From an uncultured Gemmiger sp. (GTDB lineage Bacteria; Bacillota; Clostridia; Oscillospirales; Ruminococcaceae): a stretch of DNA of 32,086 bases. Within the stretch, counting starts at the first letter, position 1. Every line of letters starts with the position of its first letter. Location: NCBI GenBank assembly GCA_944382785.1, contig CALWNO010000029.1:1-32086 (forward strand), in the 5' to 3' direction. Both the position numbers and the translations under genes were made by a program. Of this stretch, positions 2,579-13,679 are shown piece after piece. The notes under the pieces were generated by a model that saw only the letters and a list, made by a program, of their open reading frames with translations, ran no database searches and had not been told where the DNA came from.

Positions 2579-4384
2579 ATGCTGTATCCCATTCTGACCC
2601 CGTCCCGGCTGCTCTGTGATTTAAGCGGTGTCTGGGATTTCAAACTGGACAACGGCGAAGGCTTTGAGGAAGGCTGGTACAAGGCGCCGCTGCAGGACCC
2701 CATGACCATGCCGGTGCCTGCCTCCTACAATGATATCAAAGAGGGCGTGGACTTCCGCGACCATGTGGGTTGGGTGTTCTATCAGCGCAAGATCTCGGTG
2801 CCGGCTTTTGCCAAAAGCCAGCGCATCCTGCTGCGCTGTGAGGCGGTGACCCATCACGCCCGGGTGTACCTCAACGGACAGCTGCTGTGTGAGCACAAAG
2901 GCGGTTTCCTGCCCTTTGAGGTGGAAATCAACGAGGCCCTGAAGGATGGCCAGGACAACCTTCTGACCATTGCCGTCAGCAACCGCATCGACTATACCAC
3001 CCTGCCGGTTGGCACCACCAAAAGCATCCTCAATGGCGGTATGCCCCAGAGTGAGACGGCATCCAAGGGCAACAACCCGAACTTTGACTTCTTCAACTAT
3101 GCGGGCATCAACCGGCCGGTGAAGATCTATACCACCCCCAAAGACTATATCGCCGATATTACCGTGGTGCCGGAAGTTTCCGGCGCCGATGCACAGCTGA
3201 CCTACACGGTGGACACCGTGGGCCGGGGCGGCTGCCGCGTGGAAGTGCTGGACCGGGAAGGACGGCTGGTGACCGAAGCACAGGGCACGGCCGGGGTGCT
3301 GACCATCCACAATGTGCACCTGTGGCAGCCGCTGAATGCTTATCTCTATGACATCCGGGTCACCTTCGGCAGCGACGTTTACACGCTGCCGTACGGTGTA
3401 CGCACCGTGCGGGTGGAAGGGACAAAGTTCCTGATCAACGGCAAGCCCTTCTACTTCAAGGGCTACGGCCGCCATGAAGATACCTTCCCCAACGGCCGCG
3501 GCATGAACCTGGCCATGAACGTGAAGGATGTTTCGCTGATGAAGTGGCAGGGGGCCAACAGCTTCCGGACCAGTCACTATCCTTACAGCGAGGAGATGAT
3601 GCGCCTGTGTGATGAGGAAGGGTTCGTGATCATCGACGAGACCACCGCGGTGGGCGTGAATCTGAGCTTCGGCGGCGGTGCCAATTTCGGCGGCCAGGCT
3701 GTGGGAACTTTTGATAAAGAGCACGGCGTCCAGACCCAGGAACATCACAAGGAGGTCATCCGTGATCTGATCGCCCGGGATAAGAACCACGCCTGTGTGG
3801 TGATGTGGAGCATTGCCAATGAGCCGGATTCCACCTCGGAAGGCGCCTATGACTACTTTGCCCCGCTGTTTGCGCTGGCGAGGGAACTGGACCCCCAGAA
3901 GCGCCCCTGCACCCTGGTGGATGTGCAGTCCGGCGCAGCGCCCAAGGATGACTGCGTTTCCAGCCTGGCGGATGTGGTCTGCCTGAACCGCTACTACGGC
4001 TGGTACTATGGCGGCCCCGACCTGAAGGCCTCGGAGCGGGCCCTGCGTGCCGAACTGGATGCCTGGCGGGAGATCGGCAAGCCGGTGGTCTTTACCGAGT
4101 TCGGCGCCGATACGGTGATGGGCCTGCATGACACCACCCCGGTTCTGTACACCGAGGAGTACCAGGTGGACTATTATGAGATGAACACCCGCGTTTTTGA
4201 TGACTACGACTTTGTCATCGGTGAGCAGGTCTGGAACTTTGCCGATTTTGCCACCAGCCAGGGTCTGCTGCGCGTACAGGGCAACAAGAAGGGCCTGTTC
4301 ACCCGGGACCGCAAACCCAAGCTGGCCGCCCACTACTTCCGCCGCCGGTGGCATGCCATTCCGGACTTTGACTACAAAAAGTAA
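2579..4384 (+). CDS. uidA: Beta-glucuronidase, glycoside hydrolase family 2
   Basis: The 601-residue product hydrolyses beta-D-glucuronides with retention of configuration. The layout is the standard GH2 one: jelly-roll sugar-binding domain (about 1-180), immunoglobulin-like domain (about 180-275) and TIM barrel (about 275-600). The acid/base Glu415 is in WSIANEPDS and the nucleophile Glu507 in TEFGAD. The glucuronate-recognition N-x-K motif is present as Asn569-Lys571 in GNKKGLFTRDRKPK, separating it from beta-galactosidases. A segment around residues 360-390 (LSFGGGANFGG) corresponds in place to the active-site loop 1 of E. coli enzyme, the type associated with small drug glucuronides. There is no signal peptide, so it is cytosolic. 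AAGGA precedes the ATG. It is followed by its own terminator and is divergent from an AraC regulator. No glucuronide transporter is adjacent. Confidence 0.96.
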   Translation: MLYPILTPSRLLCDLSGVWDFKLDNGEGFEEGWYKAPLQDPMTMPVPASYNDIKEGVDFRDHVGWVFYQRKISVPAFAKSQRILLRCEAVTHHARVYLNGQLLCEHKGGFLPFEVEINEALKDGQDNLLTIAVSNRIDYTTLPVGTTKSILNGGMPQSETASKGNNPNFDFFNYAGINRPVKIYTTPKDYIADITVVPEVSGADAQLTYTVDTVGRGGCRVEVLDREGRLVTEAQGTAGVLTIHNVHLWQPLNAYLYDIRVTFGSDVYTLPYGVRTVRVEGTKFLINGKPFYFKGYGRHEDTFPNGRGMNLAMNVKDVSLMKWQGANSFRTSHYPYSEEMMRLCDEEGFVIIDETTAVGVNLSFGGGANFGGQAVGTFDKEHGVQTQEHHKEVIRDLIARDKNHACVVMWSIANEPDSTSEGAYDYFAPLFALARELDPQKRPCTLVDVQSGAAPKDDCVSSLADVVCLNRYYGWYYGGPDLKASERALRAELDAWREIGKPVVFTEFGADTVMGLHDTTPVLYTEEYQVDYYEMNTRVFDDYDFVIGEQVWNFADFATSQGLLRVQGNKKGLFTRDRKPKLAAHYFRRRWHAIPDFDYKK

Positions 4385-4466
4385 GGCCCGGTGCTTTCTC
4401 TCTCTTTTGCCGTGTGCCTCTCTTCCGTTGTCGGGCTCATAACCTGACGAATCCTCTCATACGGCC

Positions 4467-4500
4467 AAAGGGCTCCCCTGCGTACACAGGGGAGCCCTTT
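4467..4500 (+). terminator. Intrinsic terminator after uidA
   Basis: A 14-bp perfect stem, AAAGGGCTCCCCTG paired with CAGGGGAGCCCTTT, closes a 6-base loop. The T run is short (three Ts), but the stem is very stable and sits between two transcription units. Confidence 0.75.
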
Positions 4501-4529
4501 GCATAATCCCGCCTCCGCTGCCTTATACT
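4499..4529 (+). promoter_or_regulatory. Possible promoter of the ferritin-like gene
   Basis: A good -10 box TATACT lies at 4524-4529. The only -35-like element is TTGCAT at 4499-4504 with a long 19-base spacer. The position, 31 bases before the ATG, fits; the assignment is weak. Confidence 0.3.
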
Positions 4530-4559
4530 ACGGAAGAACAAACTGCAAGGAGGAACTGT

Positions 4560-5819
4560 ATGAATCCTTTTGAAGAGAAGCCTTCCCGGAAAGCCGGGGC
4601 GTTCCAGAGCTGGAAAAGTCTGTATCCAAAAGCCTACTGCAAGGACGAAACGGACGCTTATACCAAGGTGCGGATTATCCTGATGACCGGGGCCGAGTAT
4701 GAGGCCGTGTGGTTCGGTCACCAGTTCCACCGCCACTGCACCGACAACGATCTGCGCCGGGAGCTGGCGGTGGTGCGGCGGCAGGAGCAGCAGCAACAGC
4801 ACCAGCTGGCCTACCTGAAACCCGCCGACGAGACCCAGCTGGAAACTACCATCACCTACGAGCAGCTGGCGGTGGACCTGACCGCCATCCTGGCCCAGCG
4901 GGAGCCGGACCCCTATGTGGTGAAGGCGCTGAACTTTGCCCTGCTGGAGGACTTTGACCATCTGTACCGGTATGCGGACCTGCTGGAGATGGAGCAGGGC
5001 ATCCGGGCGGAACAGCTGGTGGGGGGCTACACCGAGATCATGCCCGGACGGCCCACCATCGCCCACCACCGTCATCCGGTGGACAGCGTCCGCCGGGCCT
5101 GCGATTTCAAGAAAGCGGATCTGCGCACCATGCTGGACACCTGTACCATCACCGCCGCAGAACAGCAGACAATGAACTACTATATGAATCTGGGCGCCTT
5201 CTACCCCAACGACCTGGGCCGGCGGCTGTACCAGGAGATCGGCATGGTGGAGGAACAGCACGTCACCCAGTACGGGGCCCTCATGGACCCCGGCTGCACC
5301 TGGCTGGAGAATCTGCTGCTCCACGAGTACAACGAGTGCTACCTCTACTGGTCCTGTTTTGAGACCGAGACCGACGACGCGGTGAAGAAGATCTGGGAGC
5401 GGTATTTCGATATGGAGGTGGGGCACCTGCACAAGGCGGCCCGGCTGCTGCAACAGTATGAGGGCAAGGAATGGCAGCAGGTGCTGCCCCAGGGCGAGTT
5501 CCCGGAACTGCTCCGCTTTGCCCCTCAGATCGACTACGTGCGCAAGGTGCTGAAGAACACGGTGGAGCTCACCGCCGCCGGGGAGGACTACCTGCCCGTT
5601 GACCAGGCGGCCCCGGATTCCCCCTTCTTCCAGTACCAGGAAGCGGTGAACAAGGGCGGCCCCGAGGCGGTGCCCAGCCATTGCGTCATCCGGGACTACC
5701 AGGAGAAGAACGGGGAGGACTACCGCTACCAGACCAAGAAGCACCCCGTCCCCGCCCTGTCGGACCGCACCACCGACAACACCCAGCTGGGGTGCGTGCC
5801 CGGTGCAGCCAAAAACTGA
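4560..5819 (+). CDS. Ferritin-like diiron protein of unknown function
   Basis: The product is 419 residues and soluble. Residues about 120-305 hold four helices with the spacing and ligands of a ferritin-like diiron site: Glu130/His134 in ALLEDFDHL, Glu231-x-x-His234 in MVEEQHVTQY, Glu256 and Glu259 in LLHEYNECY, and Glu286-x-x-His289 in DMEVGHLHK. The N-terminal ~115 residues include a polar, Gln-rich stretch (QEQQQQHQ), and the C-terminal ~100 residues are an extension I do not recognise. Ferritin-like folds store iron or use a diiron centre for redox chemistry; which applies here cannot be told. AAGGAGGA lies seven bases before the ATG. The gene stands alone between two terminators. A catalase- or rubrerythrin-like function is possible, but no rubredoxin Cys pair is visible. 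Confidence 0.75.
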   Translation: MNPFEEKPSRKAGAFQSWKSLYPKAYCKDETDAYTKVRIILMTGAEYEAVWFGHQFHRHCTDNDLRRELAVVRRQEQQQQHQLAYLKPADETQLETTITYEQLAVDLTAILAQREPDPYVVKALNFALLEDFDHLYRYADLLEMEQGIRAEQLVGGYTEIMPGRPTIAHHRHPVDSVRRACDFKKADLRTMLDTCTITAAEQQTMNYYMNLGAFYPNDLGRRLYQEIGMVEEQHVTQYGALMDPGCTWLENLLLHEYNECYLYWSCFETETDDAVKKIWERYFDMEVGHLHKAARLLQQYEGKEWQQVLPQGEFPELLRFAPQIDYVRKVLKNTVELTAAGEDYLPVDQAAPDSPFFQYQEAVNKGGPEAVPSHCVIRDYQEKNGEDYRYQTKKHPVPALSDRTTDNTQLGCVPGAAKN

Positions 5820-5846
5820 CCTGAAAAATTGCCCAATTTTTTCAAA

Positions 5847-5875
5847 GCCCAGGCTCCGGCCCGGGCATCTTTTTT
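5847..5875 (+). terminator. Intrinsic terminator after the ferritin-like gene
   Basis: The hairpin pairs GCCCAGG with CCCGGGC (one A-C mismatch) around a CTCCGG loop and is followed by ATC and a run of Ts. Confidence 0.6.
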
Positions 5876-6032
5876 GTCGGTTGTGCGGCTTTTCGACAAA
5901 ATTCGGCCAGACGGGGAAGCTTGGAGAGTTAAACCTTTGTGGAACCTGCAAAAGAACCTCCGGAATTTTAGGTAAATTTTCTTGCGTTCCTCCAAAAATT
6001 GATCACATTCGAATAATTTGTACATTTTACTA

Positions 6033-6061
6033 CGGACATTTCCGGTTCAGTGTGCTATACT
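6033..6061 (+). promoter_or_regulatory. Promoter of the NRPS-like gene
   Basis: CGGACA at 6033-6038 (four of six -35 bases) and TATACT at 6056-6061 are separated by exactly 17 bases. The -10 box carries the TGn extension (TGCTATACT). Transcription would start near 6068, leaving a leader of about 98 bases. Confidence 0.65.
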
Positions 6062-6068
6062 CAAGACA

Positions 6069-6090
6069 GCGCTTCGGAAAAAAGGAGCGC
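6069..6090 (+). promoter_or_regulatory. 5'-end hairpin in the NRPS-like gene's leader
   Basis: GCGCTTC (6069-6075) pairs with GGAGCGC (6084-6090), one pair being G-U, around a purine loop GGAAAAAA. It would form at or within a base or two of the predicted transcript start, a position that often stabilises mRNA. It is not a recognised riboswitch. Confidence 0.4.
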
Positions 6091-6165
6091 AGGAAAGAGA
6101 AAAAATTGAACAGCTGGTCAAACAAAGATTTTGGAACACGGTGTGACACTTTCAGGAGGAAAACT

Positions 6166-9100
6166 ATGATAACCTACGAGAACACCAAAACAGTGTATGA
6201 CCTGGTAGAAAATGCGGGAAAAGAATACGGCGACAGAGTCTTTTTGCGGTATGAAGACAACGACGTTGTCTATGATGTGACCTATGCCAAATTTGTGGAG
6301 GAGTGCCATGCCATTGCCGCCTGGGTCAAGGAACAGGATGCAGTGGTGGGTCACAAGGTCCAGGTGGGGCTGCTGGGCAGCAGCAGCCATCACTACCTGG
6401 CGGTGATGCTGGGCGTCATGGCCAACGGCAATACGGTGGTGCCCCTGGACGTGCAGCTGGATGTGGCGGGCCTGACCGACTGCCTGACCCGTGCGGATGT
6501 GGATATCCTGTTCTATGACTGGGAGCACGCCCCCCTGGTGGAAGGGGTCAAGGACGCCTGCCCCCGGGTCAGGAGCTACATCTCTTTGCAGCACGGCAAG
6601 CATGTGCCCTGCTCCGACAATCTGCTGAAGGAATTCGCCGGCCGCCGGGTCACCCCCGACGTTTCGGAAAACGACTGCGCCATGATCCTGTTCACCTCCG
6701 GCACCACCGGACGGGGCAAGGGGGTCATGCTGTCCAACCGGAACCTGATTGACAACACCTTCTCCTCCACCACCACCGACGATGGCGCGCAGGAAGTGTA
6801 CCTGAACATCCTGCCCATCCATCACGTTTTCTGCATCAACAGCGACGTGTTGGCAGGCATGCGGTACGGGGTGCTGCTCTGCCTCAACCGGGACCTGAGC
6901 AAGCTGGCGGACCACCTGAAACTGTTCCAGCCCACCTCCTTCCGGGCGGTGCCCATGGTGGCCAAGGCTCTGTTCAACCGGCTGATGATGATCAAGACCC
7001 AGCACCCGGAGATGACCACCCAGCAGCTGAAGGAGGAAGTGTTCGGCAGCCGTCTGCGCAAGATCGTCTGCGGCGGCGGGTACCTGACCCCGGAACTGGC
7101 CAAGAATTACCAGGACCTGGGCATCCTCATCGGCCAGGGCTACGGCATGTCTGAGTGCTCGCCCGTCATCTCTGCCCCCGACTGGGACCGCCCGGACAAG
7201 GTGGCCTCGGTGGGCAAGGTGGTGGACCGGTGCCAGGTGCGCATTGTGGACGGGGAGATACAGGTCAAGAGCCCCTCGGTGATGATGGGCTACTATAAGG
7301 ACCCGGAGAACACCGCCGAAGCCCTGACCGAGGACGGATGGCTGCGTACCGGGGACCTGGGTCATTTGGACGAGGAGGGCTTTTTGTACCTCACCGGCCG
7401 GAAAAAGAATCTGATCGTTCTCAGCAACGGGGAAAACGTGGCCCCGGAGCAGATCGAGAACATGTTTGACGATGAGCCCATTGTGGAGGACATTCTGGTG
7501 TTCGAGGAGAACGACACCATCACCGCCGAGGTATACCCCAACTTCCGGTACGCCGAGGATATGGACATCCCCGATATCCAGGCCGCCGTGGGGCAGACCG
7601 TTGCCAAGATCAACCAGCAGCTGCCCACCTTCAAGCGCATCCTCCATTTCCGGGTACGCAAAACCCCCTTTGAAAAAACCAGCTCCCGGAAGATCAAGCG
7701 CACCCACTACTTCAGCCAGAAGCAGGCCGAGGAGGAAAACCGCAAAAAGCGCATCCTGCCCCAGAACGAACTGCAGCAGAAGCTCTATGACGCTGTGGCC
7801 GGTGTGCTGGGCCACCAGGATTTCGGCATCGATACCGATTTTTACCAGGCAGGCATGGATTCCATGGGCAGCGTGATGCTGCTCACCGACCTGTCCGAAA
7901 AGATGGATTTCTCCATCACCCTGGACGACCTGATGGCCCATGCCAGCGTGCAGAAGCTGGAGGCCTACTACCAGGAAAAGCAGCAGGAGGAAAAGGTGGA
8001 CTACACCCCCCGGGCGGTGTACCCCCTCACCAACATGCAGATCTACTTTGCCTACGTCATGCGGGGCAACACCACCGCCAACCTGCCCTCCCTCATCCAT
8101 CTGGACCCCAGCGTGGACCTGCAGCGGCTCCAGACCGCAGTGGCCGACCTGTTTGACGTTCATCCCGGCCTCAAGGCCGTCATCCAGATGGACGACGGTG
8201 CCTACAAGAGCTTCCGCCATGACGAGATCCGGGTCAACGTGCCCATCTGCCGTCAGAGCGACGAGGAGTTCGCCCGGACCCGGGAGCATCTGCTGGTGCC
8301 CTTCCTCTACGGCAAGGACGAGCCCCTGTACCACGTGGGCATCTACCAGACCGACAGCGCCAACTACCTGTTCCTGGACGTGGGCCACATTGTGGGTGAC
8401 GGCATGACTCTGAAGATTTTGTTTGAGGACCTGAACCGTCTGTACGCCGGGGAGAAGGTGGAGAAGGAAGCCTACACCCTCTTTGAATACGTGCTGGACG
8501 AGAAGGACTGGGAAAGCAAGGGCAAGCGGACCCAGGATATCCAGTATTACCGGGAGCTGCTGCAGGGCGCCCGCATCAAAAAGAGCATCCTGAACCGGAA
8601 GGACTTCCACGACCTGGACCACGGGGAGAACGCCTCCCTGAAGGGCCGGTTCACCGTCAGCCCCAACCAGCTCAATGCCTTCTGCCGCCAGCACAAGGTG
8701 TCCGAGAACGTCATGTTCCTCACCGCCTTCAACTACTGCATCTCCATCTTCAGCAATGAGAAGGATGTGGTCAGCAGCAGCATCCACAGTGGCCGTACCG
8801 ACAGCCGCTGGACCCGTCTGGCCGGGCCTCTGTTCCTGAGCTACCTGTTCCGGTACACCAACCGGGCCCACGAGACGGTGCCCCAGCTGCTGTCCCGGTC
8901 CGCCCGGCAGATCATGGAGACCATGCGGTGCCATATCTCCTGCCTGCATTCCGACGAAATGTTCTTCCAGTACCAGGGCGACATCCTGAACCTGGACGAG
9001 ATCGGCGGCGCCCCCGCCCACCGGGAGCACATCCAGCTGGACTCCCTGCCTTTCCATCTGCAGGTCATGTCCAACGCCAAGGGCTTCTATTTCTACGAGC

Positions 9101-9774
9101 TGCGGTACTGGGAAAACCGGTTTGACCGTCAGCAGCTGGAGATCTTCATGGAGTGCATGGATGTCATCGTCAAGGCCATGCTCACCGAGCCTTCGGTGCG
9201 CCGGCTGAAAAAGCATCTGCCCCAGAATCTGTTCCCCCATCACTACTTTGTGAAGGCGGCGGAGGTGAACGCCGCCGCGGGCAGCGCCCTTCTCCCGGAT
9301 ATGGACGGAGAAGAGAAGGTGAAGGCCTATGTCCTGGACGACACCTGCCGCAAGCAGCCTCTGGGCGCCTGGGGTACCTTGTACATCATGGACCATCCCA
9401 CCAGCAACTGGACCGACAAGATTACCAACCCCTACGGCCCCGGCATGCTGTACCAGACCGGCCTGCATGCCCGCATCCTGCCGGACGGCAGCCTGGATAT
9501 CCTGGAACAGTGCGGCCGCACCATCATGATGGAGAGCCTCACCGGACGGGACTTCCTGGACCTGGGCAAGCTGGAACGGGTGCTCCGCGCCTATGAGGGC
9601 GTGGAGACCGCCCAGGCGTACATCACCTGGGGTATGGAGCACCGCATGGAGCTGTGCGCCGATATCACCGGCCGGGAACAGCCGGATCTGGACAAGCTCA
9701 ACGCCTATCTGCAGGAGAAGGTGGAGCCGGTGCTGGTTCCCAAACAGATCCACTTTACCCAGACGGTGTCCTGA
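6166..9774 (+). CDS. NRPS-like synthetase: adenylation, carrier, condensation, partial second adenylation
   Basis: The product is 1202 residues. Residues 1 to about 530 are an AMP-forming adenylation domain (LFTSGTTGRGKGVMLSNRN at about 175-193, GYGMSECSPV, GWLRTGDLGHLDEEG, GRKKN, and a C-terminal Lys region KTSSRKIKR). Its style is closer to long-chain acyl-CoA/acyl-ACP ligases than to amino-acid NRPS domains. A carrier domain follows, with phosphopantetheine Ser566 in AGMDSMGS. Residues about 610-1020 are a condensation domain whose HHxxxDG core reads GHIVGDG: the second, catalytic His741 and Asp745 are kept, the first His is Gly. Residues about 1060-1202 resemble only the end of another adenylation domain (YQTGLHARILPDGSLDIL onward). 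AGGAGG precedes the ATG at 6166. There is no thioesterase or reductase, and no phosphopantetheinyl transferase nearby. It may acylate an unknown acceptor; the product is unknown. Confidence 0.85.
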   Translation: MITYENTKTVYDLVENAGKEYGDRVFLRYEDNDVVYDVTYAKFVEECHAIAAWVKEQDAVVGHKVQVGLLGSSSHHYLAVMLGVMANGNTVVPLDVQLDVAGLTDCLTRADVDILFYDWEHAPLVEGVKDACPRVRSYISLQHGKHVPCSDNLLKEFAGRRVTPDVSENDCAMILFTSGTTGRGKGVMLSNRNLIDNTFSSTTTDDGAQEVYLNILPIHHVFCINSDVLAGMRYGVLLCLNRDLSKLADHLKLFQPTSFRAVPMVAKALFNRLMMIKTQHPEMTTQQLKEEVFGSRLRKIVCGGGYLTPELAKNYQDLGILIGQGYGMSECSPVISAPDWDRPDKVASVGKVVDRCQVRIVDGEIQVKSPSVMMGYYKDPENTAEALTEDGWLRTGDLGHLDEEGFLYLTGRKKNLIVLSNGENVAPEQIENMFDDEPIVEDILVFEENDTITAEVYPNFRYAEDMDIPDIQAAVGQTVAKINQQLPTFKRILHFRVRKTPFEKTSSRKIKRTHYFSQKQAEEENRKKRILPQNELQQKLYDAVAGVLGHQDFGIDTDFYQAGMDSMGSVMLLTDLSEKMDFSITLDDLMAHASVQKLEAYYQEKQQEEKVDYTPRAVYPLTNMQIYFAYVMRGNTTANLPSLIHLDPSVDLQRLQTAVADLFDVHPGLKAVIQMDDGAYKSFRHDEIRVNVPICRQSDEEFARTREHLLVPFLYGKDEPLYHVGIYQTDSANYLFLDVGHIVGDGMTLKILFEDLNRLYAGEKVEKEAYTLFEYVLDEKDWESKGKRTQDIQYYRELLQGARIKKSILNRKDFHDLDHGENASLKGRFTVSPNQLNAFCRQHKVSENVMFLTAFNYCISIFSNEKDVVSSSIHSGRTDSRWTRLAGPLFLSYLFRYTNRAHETVPQLLSRSARQIMETMRCHISCLHSDEMFFQYQGDILNLDEIGGAPAHREHIQLDSLPFHLQVMSNAKGFYFYELRYWENRFDRQQLEIFMECMDVIVKAMLTEPSVRRLKKHLPQNLFPHHYFVKAAEVNAAAGSALLPDMDGEEKVKAYVLDDTCRKQPLGAWGTLYIMDHPTSNWTDKITNPYGPGMLYQTGLHARILPDGSLDILEQCGRTIMMESLTGRDFLDLGKLERVLRAYEGVETAQAYITWGMEHRMELCADITGREQPDLDKLNAYLQEKVEPVLVPKQIHFTQTVS

Positions 9775-9804
9775 GCTCCGCATGAATCATAATTAGGCAC
9801 TGCA

Positions 9805-9846
9805 GCCCGACAAACAACTTGCATGCAAGTGTTTGCCGGGCTTTTT
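9805..9846 (+). terminator. Intrinsic terminator after the NRPS-like gene
   Basis: A long stem pairs GCCCGACAAAC with GTTTGCCGGGC and continues inward through CTTGCA/TGCAAG with a bulged A. It is followed by TTTTTG. Confidence 0.85.
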
Positions 9847-9898
9847 GTGTGGGCAGGGCCGCCAGGGAGGCTTTGTCATACCACCGGTGGGGAACAGA

Positions 9899-9940
9899 TG
9901 CAATTCACGCGGGAAAAAGTGCAATTCGCGCTGAAAAAAG
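9899..9940 (+). repeat. Two tandem 21-bp repeats, candidate LytTR-type operator
   Basis: The copies at 9899-9919 and 9920-9940 are adjacent and agree at 18 of 21 positions. Each starts TGCAATTC, has CGC in the middle and ends AAAAAG. A 21-base period places both copies on the same face of the helix, and this is the spacing of LytTR-regulator (AgrA/ComE type) direct repeats. They end five bases before the -35 position of the promoter for the membrane protein/GH3 operon. A LytTR response regulator is encoded just downstream of that operon. Binding is inference. Confidence 0.6.
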
Positions 9941-9944
9941 CCAT

Positions 9945-9973
9945 GATTTGCCGCCGCGTTGTATCTTTATGAT
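9945..9973 (+). promoter_or_regulatory. Promoter of the membrane protein/GH3 operon
   Basis: A good -10 box TATGAT lies at 9968-9973. The -35 position 17 bases upstream is GATTTG, a poor match, as expected for a promoter needing an activator. The tandem repeats lie directly upstream. The leader would be about 85 bases and contains an extra AGGAGG (around 10008) without a usable start codon behind it. Confidence 0.5.
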
Positions 9974-10063
9974 GACAAAAACGATCTGTTGGTGAAAAAA
10001 ATTGGAAAGGAGGACGAAAAAACAGAGATCTTCACCACCGGATCGGAAAAAAGGAGAAGGAGT

Positions 10064-10459
10064 ATGAAAAATTTCATGGCTAACAAAACCCTGGGATTCC
10101 GCGTCACCCTGGTCACCATGGTCCTGTCTTTGGTGACGGCGCTGGTCTACCTGGCCATCTACTCCAGCAGCCGGTACATGTCCTGGCAGGCCTTCGGCAT
10201 CATGGTGGCGGGCGTTGTGGTCGCCGCCGCGCTGGTGGGCCTGAAGCAGGTGCGCTTTGCCCCCTCCGCGCTGCTGCTGGGCGACTTTCTGTCGCTGCTG
10301 TTTTACGTGTACTACATCTACTTCTACATCTCTTCTGTGGCCACCGGCATTCAGTTCTCCGGCTTCCCGCTGGAATTCTTTGTGAATGCCGTGCTGTACG
10401 GTCTGAGCCTGGTGTTGAGCATCGTCTGTGTGTTCCTGCGCCAGACCGCGGAAGATTGA
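10064..10459 (+). CDS. Small four-helix membrane protein, GH3 operon partner
   Basis: The product is 131 residues with four predicted membrane helices: about 13-33 (VTLVTMVLSLVTALVYLAIY), 42-60 (FGIMVAGVVVAAALVG), 66-90 (PSALLLGDFLSLLFYVYYIY) and 105-125 (FFVNAVLYGLSLVLSIVCV). No catalytic motif or known family is recognised. The start is the ATG at 10064, preceded by AAGGAG; longer in-frame starts are not supported by a ribosome site. The GH3 gene begins 20 bases after its stop, so the two are co-transcribed. It may help insert or anchor the membrane-bound glycosidase (inference). Confidence 0.8.
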   Translation: MKNFMANKTLGFRVTLVTMVLSLVTALVYLAIYSSSRYMSWQAFGIMVAGVVVAAALVGLKQVRFAPSALLLGDFLSLLFYVYYIYFYISSVATGIQFSGFPLEFFVNAVLYGLSLVLSIVCVFLRQTAED

Positions 10460-10478
10460 GAAAGGAGGATCCTGCTAC

Positions 10479-13400
10479 ATGAAATACAAACTGCAGCGCA
10501 AACTGCTCACCGTCATCAGCATGCTGCTGGCGGGCTTCCTGGTGCTGGCCACCCTCATCACCGGGGAAAATGCGGATGCCATCAACGGCACCCTGGGCAC
10601 CAAGACCTTTGAGGTCGTCCAGACCGGCGAGACCGACGAGGACACCGAGTATTACAAGTCCGATTTCTCCAGCGTGGGCGACCTGCGTGCCGCCGGCAAG
10701 CAGACCGCTACCGAGGTCCTGGCCGAAGGCATGGTCCTGCTGAAGAACGACAACAACGCTCTGCCCCTGTCTTCCGGCAACAACGTGAGCCTGGTGGGCG
10801 TCACCGCCTATGACCCCGTTTACGGCGGAACCGGCTCCGGCACCATCAGCGTCAACGACGCGGTGAGCTATGTGGATTCCCTGACCAAGGCGGGCTTCAA
10901 CGTCAACCCCGACCTGCAGGCGGCCTATACCTCCGAGGACTGGGCCCAGTACAAGCGTGGCAGCGAAGGCAAGTTCGGTACCACCACCCTGATGATCCAT
11001 GAAGCTCCCTGGAACGTGGTGGACGAAGCCGCGGGCAGCAGCTTTGCCCAGTACGGCGACGCCGCCATCTTCGTGGTGGGCCGCGTGGGCGGCGAAGGCT
11101 ACGACCTGATCGGCGTCGGCGGCGACGGCATCGACAACGGCGACGGCCTGGGCCCCGACTACCTGGGTCTGAACGAAAACGAACTCTCGGTGCTGGAAGG
11201 CCTGAAGGCCAAGAAGGCTGCCGGTGAGATCAAGAAGATCATTGTGGTCATCAACTACGCCGGCATGATCGAAGGCGACTTCCTGGCCGACCCCGACATT
11301 GACGCCGCCCTGTGGGTGGGCGCCCTGGGTGTGGGCGGCGACGCCGTGGGCCAGGTGCTGTCCGGTGAGGTTTCTCCCTCCGGCCGCCTGCCCGACACCA
11401 TGTGGGTGGACAACGCCAAGAACCCGGTCAACGTGAACTTCGGCCGCTGGATCTATGAGAACGCTCCCGAGCTGGGCGTGCCCAACGAGCTGGGCACCGG
11501 CCAGTATCCCGCCACCACCCTGGCCGGCTACGTGGTCTACCAGGAAGGCATGTACCTGGGCTACCGTTACACCGAGACCCGCTACGAGGACCTGGTCCTG
11601 GGCACCCCCAACGTGGGCGACTATGACTACTCCTCCGTGGTGGCCCGTCCCTTCGGCTACGGCCTGTCCTACGCCCAGTTTGCTCTGTCCGACATGAGCG
11701 TGCAGAAGAACGGCGACCGTGAATATGATGTCACCGTCACCGTCACCAACACCTCCACCACCTACTCCGGCAAGTGCTCTGTGCCGGTGTACATCTCCAA
11801 GCCCTACGGCGAGTATGCCAAGACCAACGGCGTCCAGGTTCCTTCTGTGGAGCTGGTGGACTTCGGCAAGACCCAGACCCTGGCTCCGGGCCAGAGCGAG
11901 ACCCTGACCATCCCGGTGGATGAGAAGTTCTTCGCTTCCTATGACTCCCATAACGCCAAGGGCTACGTGCTCATGGACGGCGACTACTACCTGGCCGTGG
12001 GCGGCAACGCCCATGAGGCTGTGAACAACGTCCTGGCCGCCAAGAAGGCCAACGGCGTTGCGGTGGACGAGACCAAGATGGTGGGCGGCACCGGCGATGC
12101 TTCGCTGGTGTCCAAGTTCACCCTGAGCTTCGACAAGGACAAGTACGCTTACTCCGACGCCGTTTCCAGCCTGGACGGCGAGACCAACGTGCAGGTCACC
12201 AACCTCTTCGACTTTGCGGACATCAACCTGTACGAGGGCCGCGGCGACAACAGCGTGGAATACTACAGCCGCGACAACTGGAACAACGTTTCCTTCGACA
12301 TGGTCAACGGCCATGTGACCCTGACCATGACCGAGCAGATGGCCAAGGACATCTATGCCCAGCTGCCTGCCCAGACCGGCAAGTACAACAACGCCGCCGG
12401 TGTTCCTGAACAGTACCTGCAGCCCATCCAGCCGGATGACGGCGAGTATCCCGCTTACGGCGTGGATGCCGGCCTGAAGCTGATTGACATGCGCTACGAC
12501 GACGAAGGCAACGAGATTGCCTACAACGATCCCCTGTGGGATACCTTCATGGACCAGCTGAGCTGGGATGAGACCATGCGTCTGGTTTCCAGCGGCTTCC
12601 ATATGACCGAGCCTGTGGAAAGCATTGCCAAGCCCCAGACCAAGGACGAAAACGGCCCCAACGGCTTCGGCGGCTGGGCTTTCTCTGCCGGCTACTACAC
12701 CGGCCAGAACGGTCTGGCCTACCGCACCGCCCAGGCCCAGGGCTTTGTGGATAAGGACGGCAACGTCACCGACGCCGCCGATCCCGAAGGCTTCAAGATG
12801 ATGACCGGCTTCCCGGCCAACGGCATTCTGGCCGCCACCTTCAACCGTGAACTGGCGGAAAAGGCAGGCAACATCATCGGCAACGACGGCATCTGGGCCG
12901 GCGCCAGCGGCCTGTACGGCATCGGCCTGAACATCCATCGCTCTCCCTACGCCGGCCGTACCTGTGAGTACTTCAGCGAATGCGGCACCCTGACCGGCAT
13001 GATGGGCGCTGCCGAGAGCAAGGGCATCGAGGCCAAGGGCGTGCATGTGTACAACAAGCACTGCGCCCTGAACGACCAGGAGACCAACCGTCACGGCGTC
13101 TGCACCTGGGTCAACGAACAGGCCATCCGCGAAATTTATCTGCGCGCCTTTGAGCTGCCCATCACCGAGGGCGGTGCCTTCAACACCATGGCTTCCTTCT
13201 CCCGTTTCGGCACCCAGGCCGGCGCTGCCTGCACCGCGCTGGGCACCGACTTCCTGCGGGGCGAATGCGGCATGAAGGGCATCATCGTTACCGACGCTTA
13301 CGGCGACATGGACGGCAGCCAGGACTGCGATCCCTACTTCGAGCAGGTCTACGGCGTCCTGGTGGGCGGCAGCGATCTGCCCGACGGCAGCACTCCCAAG

Positions 13401-13679
13401 ACCGCCGGCCACTTCAAGCGGTTTGAGACCGGCTACAGCCAGATGGCCTGGGCCATGCGGGAATCCGCCAAGCGGATCTGCTACCAGACTGCCTGGTCCA
13501 ACGCCATGAACGGCATCTCCTCCAGCACCGAGATCGTGAGCATCACGCCTTGGTGGCAGCGTCTGCTGTACACCGGCGACGGTGTGTTTGGCGCTCTCTT
13601 CGTGATCGGCCTTGCCTGGACGGGCGTTGCTCTCTATCAGGAGGGCAAGAAGCGCTCCAAGGGTAAGTCGATGGAATAA
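10479..13679 (+). CDS. Membrane-anchored GH3 beta-glycosidase with permuted domain order
   Basis: The product is 1066 residues. An N-terminal membrane helix (about 8-28, LLTVISMLLAGFLVLATLI) leads to what is usually the second GH3 domain (VLLKNDNNALPLSS at about 86-99), then a fibronectin-III-like domain (from about 404). The (beta/alpha)8 domain that normally comes first is last. Its KH motif is Lys860-His861 in KHCALNDQETNRHG, and the nucleophile is Asp939 in IVTDAYGD. A second membrane helix (about 1036-1055) is followed by a basic tail (GKKRSKGK). The reversed order is known from Ruminococcus albus and Butyrivibrio GH3 enzymes. With helices at both ends, the enzyme would sit on the outer face of the membrane. 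The specific sugar is not readable; beta-glucosidase is the common activity. AAAGGAGG precedes the ATG. Confidence 0.9.
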   Translation: MKYKLQRKLLTVISMLLAGFLVLATLITGENADAINGTLGTKTFEVVQTGETDEDTEYYKSDFSSVGDLRAAGKQTATEVLAEGMVLLKNDNNALPLSSGNNVSLVGVTAYDPVYGGTGSGTISVNDAVSYVDSLTKAGFNVNPDLQAAYTSEDWAQYKRGSEGKFGTTTLMIHEAPWNVVDEAAGSSFAQYGDAAIFVVGRVGGEGYDLIGVGGDGIDNGDGLGPDYLGLNENELSVLEGLKAKKAAGEIKKIIVVINYAGMIEGDFLADPDIDAALWVGALGVGGDAVGQVLSGEVSPSGRLPDTMWVDNAKNPVNVNFGRWIYENAPELGVPNELGTGQYPATTLAGYVVYQEGMYLGYRYTETRYEDLVLGTPNVGDYDYSSVVARPFGYGLSYAQFALSDMSVQKNGDREYDVTVTVTNTSTTYSGKCSVPVYISKPYGEYAKTNGVQVPSVELVDFGKTQTLAPGQSETLTIPVDEKFFASYDSHNAKGYVLMDGDYYLAVGGNAHEAVNNVLAAKKANGVAVDETKMVGGTGDASLVSKFTLSFDKDKYAYSDAVSSLDGETNVQVTNLFDFADINLYEGRGDNSVEYYSRDNWNNVSFDMVNGHVTLTMTEQMAKDIYAQLPAQTGKYNNAAGVPEQYLQPIQPDDGEYPAYGVDAGLKLIDMRYDDEGNEIAYNDPLWDTFMDQLSWDETMRLVSSGFHMTEPVESIAKPQTKDENGPNGFGGWAFSAGYYTGQNGLAYRTAQAQGFVDKDGNVTDAADPEGFKMMTGFPANGILAATFNRELAEKAGNIIGNDGIWAGASGLYGIGLNIHRSPYAGRTCEYFSECGTLTGMMGAAESKGIEAKGVHVYNKHCALNDQETNRHGVCTWVNEQAIREIYLRAFELPITEGGAFNTMASFSRFGTQAGAACTALGTDFLRGECGMKGIIVTDAYGDMDGSQDCDPYFEQVYGVLVGGSDLPDGSTPKTAGHFKRFETGYSQMAWAMRESAKRICYQTAWSNAMNGISSSTEIVSITPWWQRLLYTGDGVFGALFVIGLAWTGVALYQEGKKRSKGKSME

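Follow-up and report, generated by a model that had tools for sequence, protein, structure and literature searches.

Fatty-acid amides of gut bacteria act on human receptors, and they are followed in genomes and metagenomes through a three-gene operon that encodes condensation (C), carrier (T) and adenylation (A) proteins in the order C-T-A (hereafter called the "CTA" type). Chang et al. 2021 is said to be the founding paper on these fatty-acid-amide (FAA) operons. Here, we analyze P0001, a gene that would unite the three functions in one polypeptide. The gene occupies positions 6166-9774 on the forward strand of a 32,086-nucleotide stretch from an uncultured Gemmiger sp. (contig CALWNO010000029.1 of assembly GCA_944382785.1; the whole stretch is hereafter called the window), and its open frame encodes a single chain of 1202 residues.

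How are the described systems recognized? One report presents the FAA systems as discrete, free-standing proteins, with the C set filtered to 300-520 residues (PMC13142362). In another, the system is a three-gene operon, for which homologues of the C and A genes are required in one operon at 70% identity over 80% of the length, with T found between them (PMC13060934). A single-chain form of about 1200 residues would slip past both filters. P0001 and its relatives share with the FAA operons (OaaA, OaaACP and OaaC) the group of A-domain ligases, the combination of A, T and C functions, and an occurrence in gut Clostridia. In contrast, the operons distribute C, T and A over three free genes, while P0001 carries them in one chain that ends in a conserved stub of a second A domain, and its T and C domains score with peptide-synthetase types. 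A literature search at the title and abstract level found no fused A-T-C fatty-acid-amide enzyme with such a stub; Chang et al. 2021 could mention one. Taken together, the sequences suggest that one gut-bacterial gene probably makes fatty-acid amides by itself.

Domain organization and the C-terminal stub

The chain consists of A, T and C domains, followed by about 150 residues from a second A domain, of the amino-acid type, of which only the C-terminal third is left (hereafter called A'). From the N-terminus to the C-terminus, Pfam identifies AMP-binding (residues 15-377), AMP-binding_C_3 (415-515), PP-binding (538-601) and Condensation (618-920), and no domain past the Condensation domain. 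An earlier sequence-only reading of the window had proposed the order A-T-C plus a C-terminal piece of a second A domain, and both the Pfam order and the match of the tail profile to the A domains of nonribosomal peptide synthetases (NRPSs), described below, confirm it. An antisense frame of 1221 residues (6118-9783) was taken as mechanical, because the homology sits on the plus-strand frame.

The same architecture, either whole or cut by a contig end, is present in at least 35 loci (L003-L037, of which L033 and L034 come from one assembly) among the best 80 matches, representing 78 loci, of a scan of genome contigs. The identity to the window's protein falls to 43%, and the uncut members are about 1200 residues long; these proteins appear to form an old, conserved family. 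Residue conservation was read from a 34-row family set, composed of the window's protein and 33 others (omitting L009, whose contig has the length of that of G020, and the cut L021, L033, L034 and L083). In the A domain, the TSGTTG..K residues 177-185 are kept in all 34 rows, save for one T to S replacement in one of them, and Lys509 is kept throughout. In the C domain, His741, Asp745 and Gly746 of the active site are likewise kept in 34 of 34. This alignment shows that A, T and C retain their catalytic residues and that A' has lost its own.

The tail is invisible to Pfam, with no relevant match for any of 33 tails scanned singly. In contrast, when these tails are combined into a profile and searched against the PDB, NRPS A domains are matched collinearly over positions 8-152 of its 156 positions (the three 33-row alignments also omit L037, which has a longer, divergent tail). 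The E-values are 4.4e-16 for LgrA (linear gramicidin synthetase, summed over its two A domains), 1.2e-14 for SrfA-C (surfactin synthetase, in one stretch), 4.8e-14 for tyrocidine synthetase and 2.6e-10 for GrsA. The profile search thereby places A' as a homologue of the A6-A9 part of A domains, A6, A7, A8 and A10 being core motifs of A domains. The first residues of A' lie shortly ahead of A6 and its last ones precede A10, so that both the A1-A5 core and the catalytic A10 lysine are absent. The aligned tails (33 rows) all end ahead of A10, and no carrier domain follows the second A domain.

The junction between C and A' is nearly constant. The distance from the end of the C domain to the A6-like segment is 4-10 residues in all 42 family rows (6 in the window), which represent 39 distinct loci, three of them present twice; this set includes L037, L021 ends inside the tail, and L033 and L034 come from one assembly. 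The same distance is 299-332 residues in 22 ordinary C-A rows of gut peptide synthetases, some of whose genes are counted twice. Therefore, about 300 residues comprising the ATP-binding core are cleanly missing, which bears out the suggestion of a partial A-tail without this core. The sequence-only reading had also allowed for a complete second A domain broken by a sequencing error. This explanation is excluded, as is a frameshift, because the identical junction recurs in independent assemblies of 39 distinct loci plus the window.

The residues that remain in A' have diverged from those of a working A domain. None of the 34 A7-like segments retains the Asp of YxTGD that would contact the ATP ribose, and neither the hinge Asp of GRxDxQVK nor its Lys occurs in any of the 34 A8-like segments. 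The protein consequently differs from a canonical NRPS C-A-T module, as no complete A domain follows C and the A7 Asp, the A8 hinge Asp and the A10 Lys are lost. The loop after the A6-like segment is about 9 residues shorter than that in ordinary A domains. Lys1063 and Trp1069 of the A6-like segment are invariant in 34 of 34 and are absent from the aligned ordinary A domains. The mean identity to the window is 0.68 for residues 1065-1110, as compared to 0.65 for A and C, and 0.45 for residues 1111-1202, the least conserved part of the protein. The dN/dS ratios are 0.026-0.244 in both halves of A', for the 12 of 16 pairs with both values; for the other four pairs, saturated dS left at least one of the two A' segments without a ratio, and many of the remaining dS values exceed 1. 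A' is thus catalytically dead, conserved and under purifying selection, rather than drifting debris. Of the two options "vestigial or repurposed" that the sequence-only reading had left for the tail, the loss of catalysis stands, while the conservation argues against a piece left to drift.

Relationships of the A, T and C domains

Which enzymes are the closest relatives of the first A domain? Its best NCBIfam match is PRK06187, under the cut-off of that model, and its best PDB matches are fatty-acyl/feruloyl-, coumarate- and succinylbenzoate-CoA ligases. The domain is thus of the acyl/fatty-acyl ligase type, not the amino-acid type, and these matches support the earlier impression of a likeness to fatty acyl ligases. 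A hidden Markov model (HMM) of the family A domain was run on the stand-alone open reading frames of 450-700 residues in the sampled loci. The ligases of L038-L045 score 525-590 bits, the operon ligase of L025 scores 432 bits, and all of the others reach at most 423 bits. In the A tree, the 12 family rows join seven of the L038-L045 ligases at a support of 99 and the eighth (L044) at 89; all trees were computed by a "quick" method on hand-picked subsets (55 rows for A, 67 and 42 rows for C). Seven of these eight loci carry a stand-alone C gene and a carrier of 74-78 residues upstream of the ligase, and thus have the C-T-A order, although the C is only an end in L038 and is in two pieces in L043. 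The scores and the tree place the family A domain with the CTA acyl-ligase type, as sampled by these loci, and this kinship is shown by sequence. Two observations are at odds with this picture: three of the 11 operon ligases (L025, L048 and L049) fall outside the ligase group that the family joins, and in L040, the eighth locus, the carrier is present, but the 2.4 kb that precede it contain no C.

The T and C domains point in another direction. The family T HMM gives 18-78 bits for 13 NRPS carriers, and the six best (57-78 bits) all lie directly before a C domain; nine CTA carriers score 5-12 bits. With the family C HMM, 49 NRPS C domains score up to 195 bits (median 146, minimum 23), as compared to at most 28 bits (median 13) for 25 OaaC-type C domains; some of the scored rows are one gene seen in two loci. 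The OaaC type is so named here because the stand-alone C of L165, a member of that group, matches PDB 12KH at 611 bits; this entry is identified as OaaC, which catalyses condensation in a fatty-acid-amide system (PMC13142362). A combined profile of C and A' matches the gramicidin, tyrocidine and surfactin synthetases in the PDB, and 12KH is absent among its 43 matches. In the C trees, the family lies among gut NRPS C domains, and the OaaC type is separate at 98-100.

The active-site motifs can be compared as well. The FAA C domains have (D/H)HxxxD(S/A/G), mostly with S or A at the last position and with G there in 17% of the published set (PMC13142362). The family retains the His and the Asp of this motif, with A, S or G at the first position and G at the last position in 34 of 34; its xHxxGDG has thereby lost the first His and kept the Gly after the Asp.

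Several results weigh against a peptide-synthetase ancestry of the T and C domains. With the family T HMM, three of the NRPS carriers located ahead of a C domain reach only 18-35 bits. The weakest NRPS C domain (23 bits) scores below the best OaaC-type domain (28 bits) with the family C HMM, and the OaaC-type model weakly detects six family C domains (21-31 bits), similar to one NRPS C domain (29 bits). The family stem is long in the C trees, and the 67-row tree gave long-branch warnings and grouped one NRPS C domain (L151) with the OaaC type. Furthermore, while the HMM scores and the combined profile keep the family C domain out of the OaaC clade, the approximately unbiased (AU) test on the 42-row C tree does not reject a topology that unites the family with the OaaC type, which is worse by only 6.6 log units (p 0.355). 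A' is also too short and divergent to pin down the parent module. In our assessment, the family C domain looks like the NRPS elongation C domains more than OaaC, and an NRPS origin of T and C is supported by the similarity scores and the tree, but not settled. The balance favours an NRPS origin of the T-C-A' unit as a whole, and the A' stub is the strongest argument for it.

Two groups of gut proteins help to place the family. The T-C-A-T peptide synthetases (L136, L137, L138, L145 and L146) have the same C-then-A order, and the T and C domains are high-scoring in L136, L137, L145 and L146. The family differs from them in that its first A domain is an acyl ligase, and about 300 core residues of the second A domain, the A10 lysine and everything beyond it are absent. 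The tail-less A-T-C proteins of about 1000 residues (L131-L133 and L135) also join A, T and C in one chain, but they have no A' stub, their C domains form a group of their own, and their A domains group with the amino-acid type (100). For this last reason, they were rejected as tail-less relatives of the family.

Proposed mechanism and alternatives

How could such a protein work? We consider it reasonably probable that P0001 encodes a single-chain acyl-amide synthetase, a chimera that would load a fatty or related acid and pass it on to a free amine, while A' would be a retained domain without catalytic function. The A domain would activate a fatty acid, or a related carboxylic acid, at the expense of ATP and attach it to the phosphopantetheine of the T domain in the same chain. 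From there, the C domain would transfer the acyl group to a freely diffusing amine. Since the formation of the amide would itself release the product, no thioesterase would be needed. The free acceptor is argued from the loss of the A and T domains further downstream, which would formerly have supplied a carrier-bound amino acid, from the failure to find a partner C-A-T in the genome, and from the ligase kinship. The kinship of the A domain with the ligases of the fatty-acid-amide operons also makes an amine-acylating function plausible. The acid, the free amine and the role of A' are inferred, and for the acid in particular, which is deduced from kinship, aryl or other acids would also fit.

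In evolutionary terms, a gut peptide synthetase may have exchanged its first A domain, at the A-T junction, for a CTA-type acyl ligase, and the following module may have been trimmed to T-C plus the A-domain stub. A more specific version is tentative, and we give it less weight: an all-in-one fatty-acid-amide synthetase might have evolved a second time, by the splicing of a CTA ligase at the A-T junction onto a T-C-A unit, whose A domain was hollowed out to a conserved pseudo-A that replaces the tethered acceptor carrier and gates the free amine. If so, nature would have made in this family the A-T and C-A cuts tried by NRPS engineers, and the family would represent a lipid-amide pathway overlooked by searches for three-gene operons.

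What would A' do? Most likely, it is a non-catalytic domain next to the acceptor side of the C domain, where it could serve as a structural cap, an acceptor gate or a partner contact. Stand-alone C proteins and tail-less A-T-C proteins exist, and OaaC, a tail-less C, is reported to work in vitro (PMC13142362); therefore, C domains do not generally need A'. Its retention suggests a job specific to this family. It is improbable, in our view, that A' is merely inert debris, the tolerated remnant of an ancestral deletion. The loss of the ATP-binding core and the catalytic motifs, the low conservation of residues 1111-1202 and the silence of Pfam are all expected of such a remnant. However, A' is kept in the 39 distinct loci and the window down to the lowest overall identity, residues 1065-1110 are conserved like A and C, the dN/dS ratios are low, and Lys1063 and Trp1069 are invariant features of this family. 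A degenerate, dead A domain is also kept in the working ferrichrome synthetases of fungi. In these multimodular enzymes it is near full length, while the family keeps only the last third, at the end of a one-module enzyme.

Where does the acyl group go? In lipopeptide initiation, the C domain acylates an amino acid bound to another carrier protein, and P0001 might similarly act in trans, with A' as a docking piece. The likeness of its C domain to elongation C domains, whose acceptor is carrier-bound, and the position of A' where the next module would be both speak for such a module. We nevertheless regard it as unlikely, because a search of the window's genome gave no second condensation domain, the family has no widely conserved neighbour gene, and the genome offers only four other small carriers (frames of 84-98 residues). 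On contig C21, one of these is separated by 238 bp from a match to an A domain, and the two look like a Dlt-like pair. The family also differs from the systems with lipo-initiating (starter) C domains, in that its C follows its own A-T and lacks a downstream carrier. Still less probable is a non-amine acceptor, such as an alcohol, a lipid head group or a protein, with which the C domain would form an ester or thioester from acyl-T. C-domain relatives can form esters, and no acceptor is readable from the sequence, but the nearest relatives of the ligase sit in operons of a type reported to make amides. Weighing on the other side of the proposed transfer to a free amine, the statement that P0001 carries the only C domain found in its genome is not absolute, because the assembly is 93.6% complete. 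Moreover, of the 35 genome-contig family loci, L025 alone has a stand-alone OaaC-type C in the sampled stretch, so that the functional linkage is weak.

If the enzyme is active as an acyl-amide synthetase, it adds producers from the window's genus, Catenibacillus (with a member, L007, in the isolate Catenibacillus scindens DSM 106146), Oribacterium and others. Moreover, the family would show how a fatty-acid ligase and the T-C unit of a peptide synthetase are joined in nature, and would provide a conserved non-catalytic A-domain stub with a directly testable role.

Distribution and surroundings of the gene

The coordinates of the gene and its parts are collected in Table 1.

Table 1. Features of the synthetase gene, in positions of the window
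Feature	Positions	Strand	Basis
A-T-C-A' synthetase gene P0001, 1202 residues	6166..9774	+	open frame, Pfam
AGGAGG, likely ribosome binding site	6154..6159	+	seen in sequence
A domain, residues 1-515, acyl/fatty-acyl ligase type	6166..7710	+	Pfam, NCBIfam, PDB, tree, HMM
T (carrier) domain, residues 530-606	7753..7983	+	Pfam, alignment
Phosphopantetheine Ser566 codon	7861-7863	+	alignment, invariant 34/34
C domain, residues 612-1040	7999..9285	+	Pfam, trees, HMM, alignment
HxxGDG of C domain, residues 741-746	8386-8403	+	alignment; H, G, D, G invariant 34/34
A', residues 1046-1202, A6 to just before A10	9301..9771	+	profile search, alignment, dN/dS
A6-like segment of A', residues 1063-1074	9352..9387	+	alignment
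A7-like segment of A', residues 1096-1104	9451..9477	+	alignment
A8-like segment of A', residues 1117-1137	9514..9576	+	alignment

The sequence-only reading had pointed to the Oscillospiraceae as the group to survey for this architecture. The architecture does recur, but by their titles 16 of the 35 genome-contig family loci are Lachnospiraceae and only one is Gemmiger, with the rest bearing other Clostridia names. In the window's genus, four of 35 genomes have the gene (the window's included, one cut by a contig end), while the 26 genomes of other genera in the same search gave no match spanning the protein. A class-wide sample yielded the gene in three of 391 genomes, again with the window's included and one cut; the matches in G485, G461 and G453 are possible further members outside these counts. 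Among plasmids, there are matches in 2553 records, all of them below 60% identity, and eight among the matches listed are at 21-24%. Base composition lends no support to a recent transfer, as the GC content is 0.55-0.64 in every 1-kb interval across 3500-11499.

A fifth genome of the genus (G004, a single contig) keeps only about the first 30 codons. At about 8089-8180 of this contig (L144, G004:C1), the synthetase remnant runs into an unrelated coding sequence, beside a region resembling P0002, the gene at 4560-5819 (+) of the window. The 419-residue product of P0002 is matched by neither Pfam nor NCBIfam at E 0.01, and by eye it is possibly ferritin-like. It adjoins the synthetase in the window and in two other genomes of the search (G014 and G020). 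A similar stretch covering more than half of P0002 occurs in 16 of the 35 same-genus genomes, and it was dropped as a partner of the system because it is found in more genomes than the synthetase.

Across the 35 family loci, no neighbour family is common to more than five (clusters at 35% identity over half the length, with several loci cut by contig ends). The earlier remark that no biosynthetic gene is adjacent accordingly holds, with the exception of L025. In this locus, an operon of the fatty-acid-amide type with a stand-alone C, a carrier and a ligase (L025:13619-16861) lies 27 bp 3' of the single-chain synthetase gene; the single-chain gene and a CTA operon can therefore be neighbours. 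For phosphopantetheinyl transferases, the window's genome gave a single match, whose frame of 128 residues is about the size of AcpS. The window itself has no Rfam match at gathering scores.

Other genes were noted within some of the fatty-acid-amide type operons. A gene of about 320 residues lies just upstream of the stand-alone C in three of them (L039:7291-8259, L041:4638-5603 and L044:2396-3349); the one from L041 is an alpha/beta hydrolase by Pfam. In L044, a 193-residue match to the phosphopantetheinyl transferase family (4995-5576) lies between the carrier and the ligase. Downstream of P0001 in the window, positions 10428-13679 (+) encode a family 3 glycosyl hydrolase (GH3), in which Pfam finds the permuted order GH3 C-terminal, Fn3-like and GH3 N-terminal.

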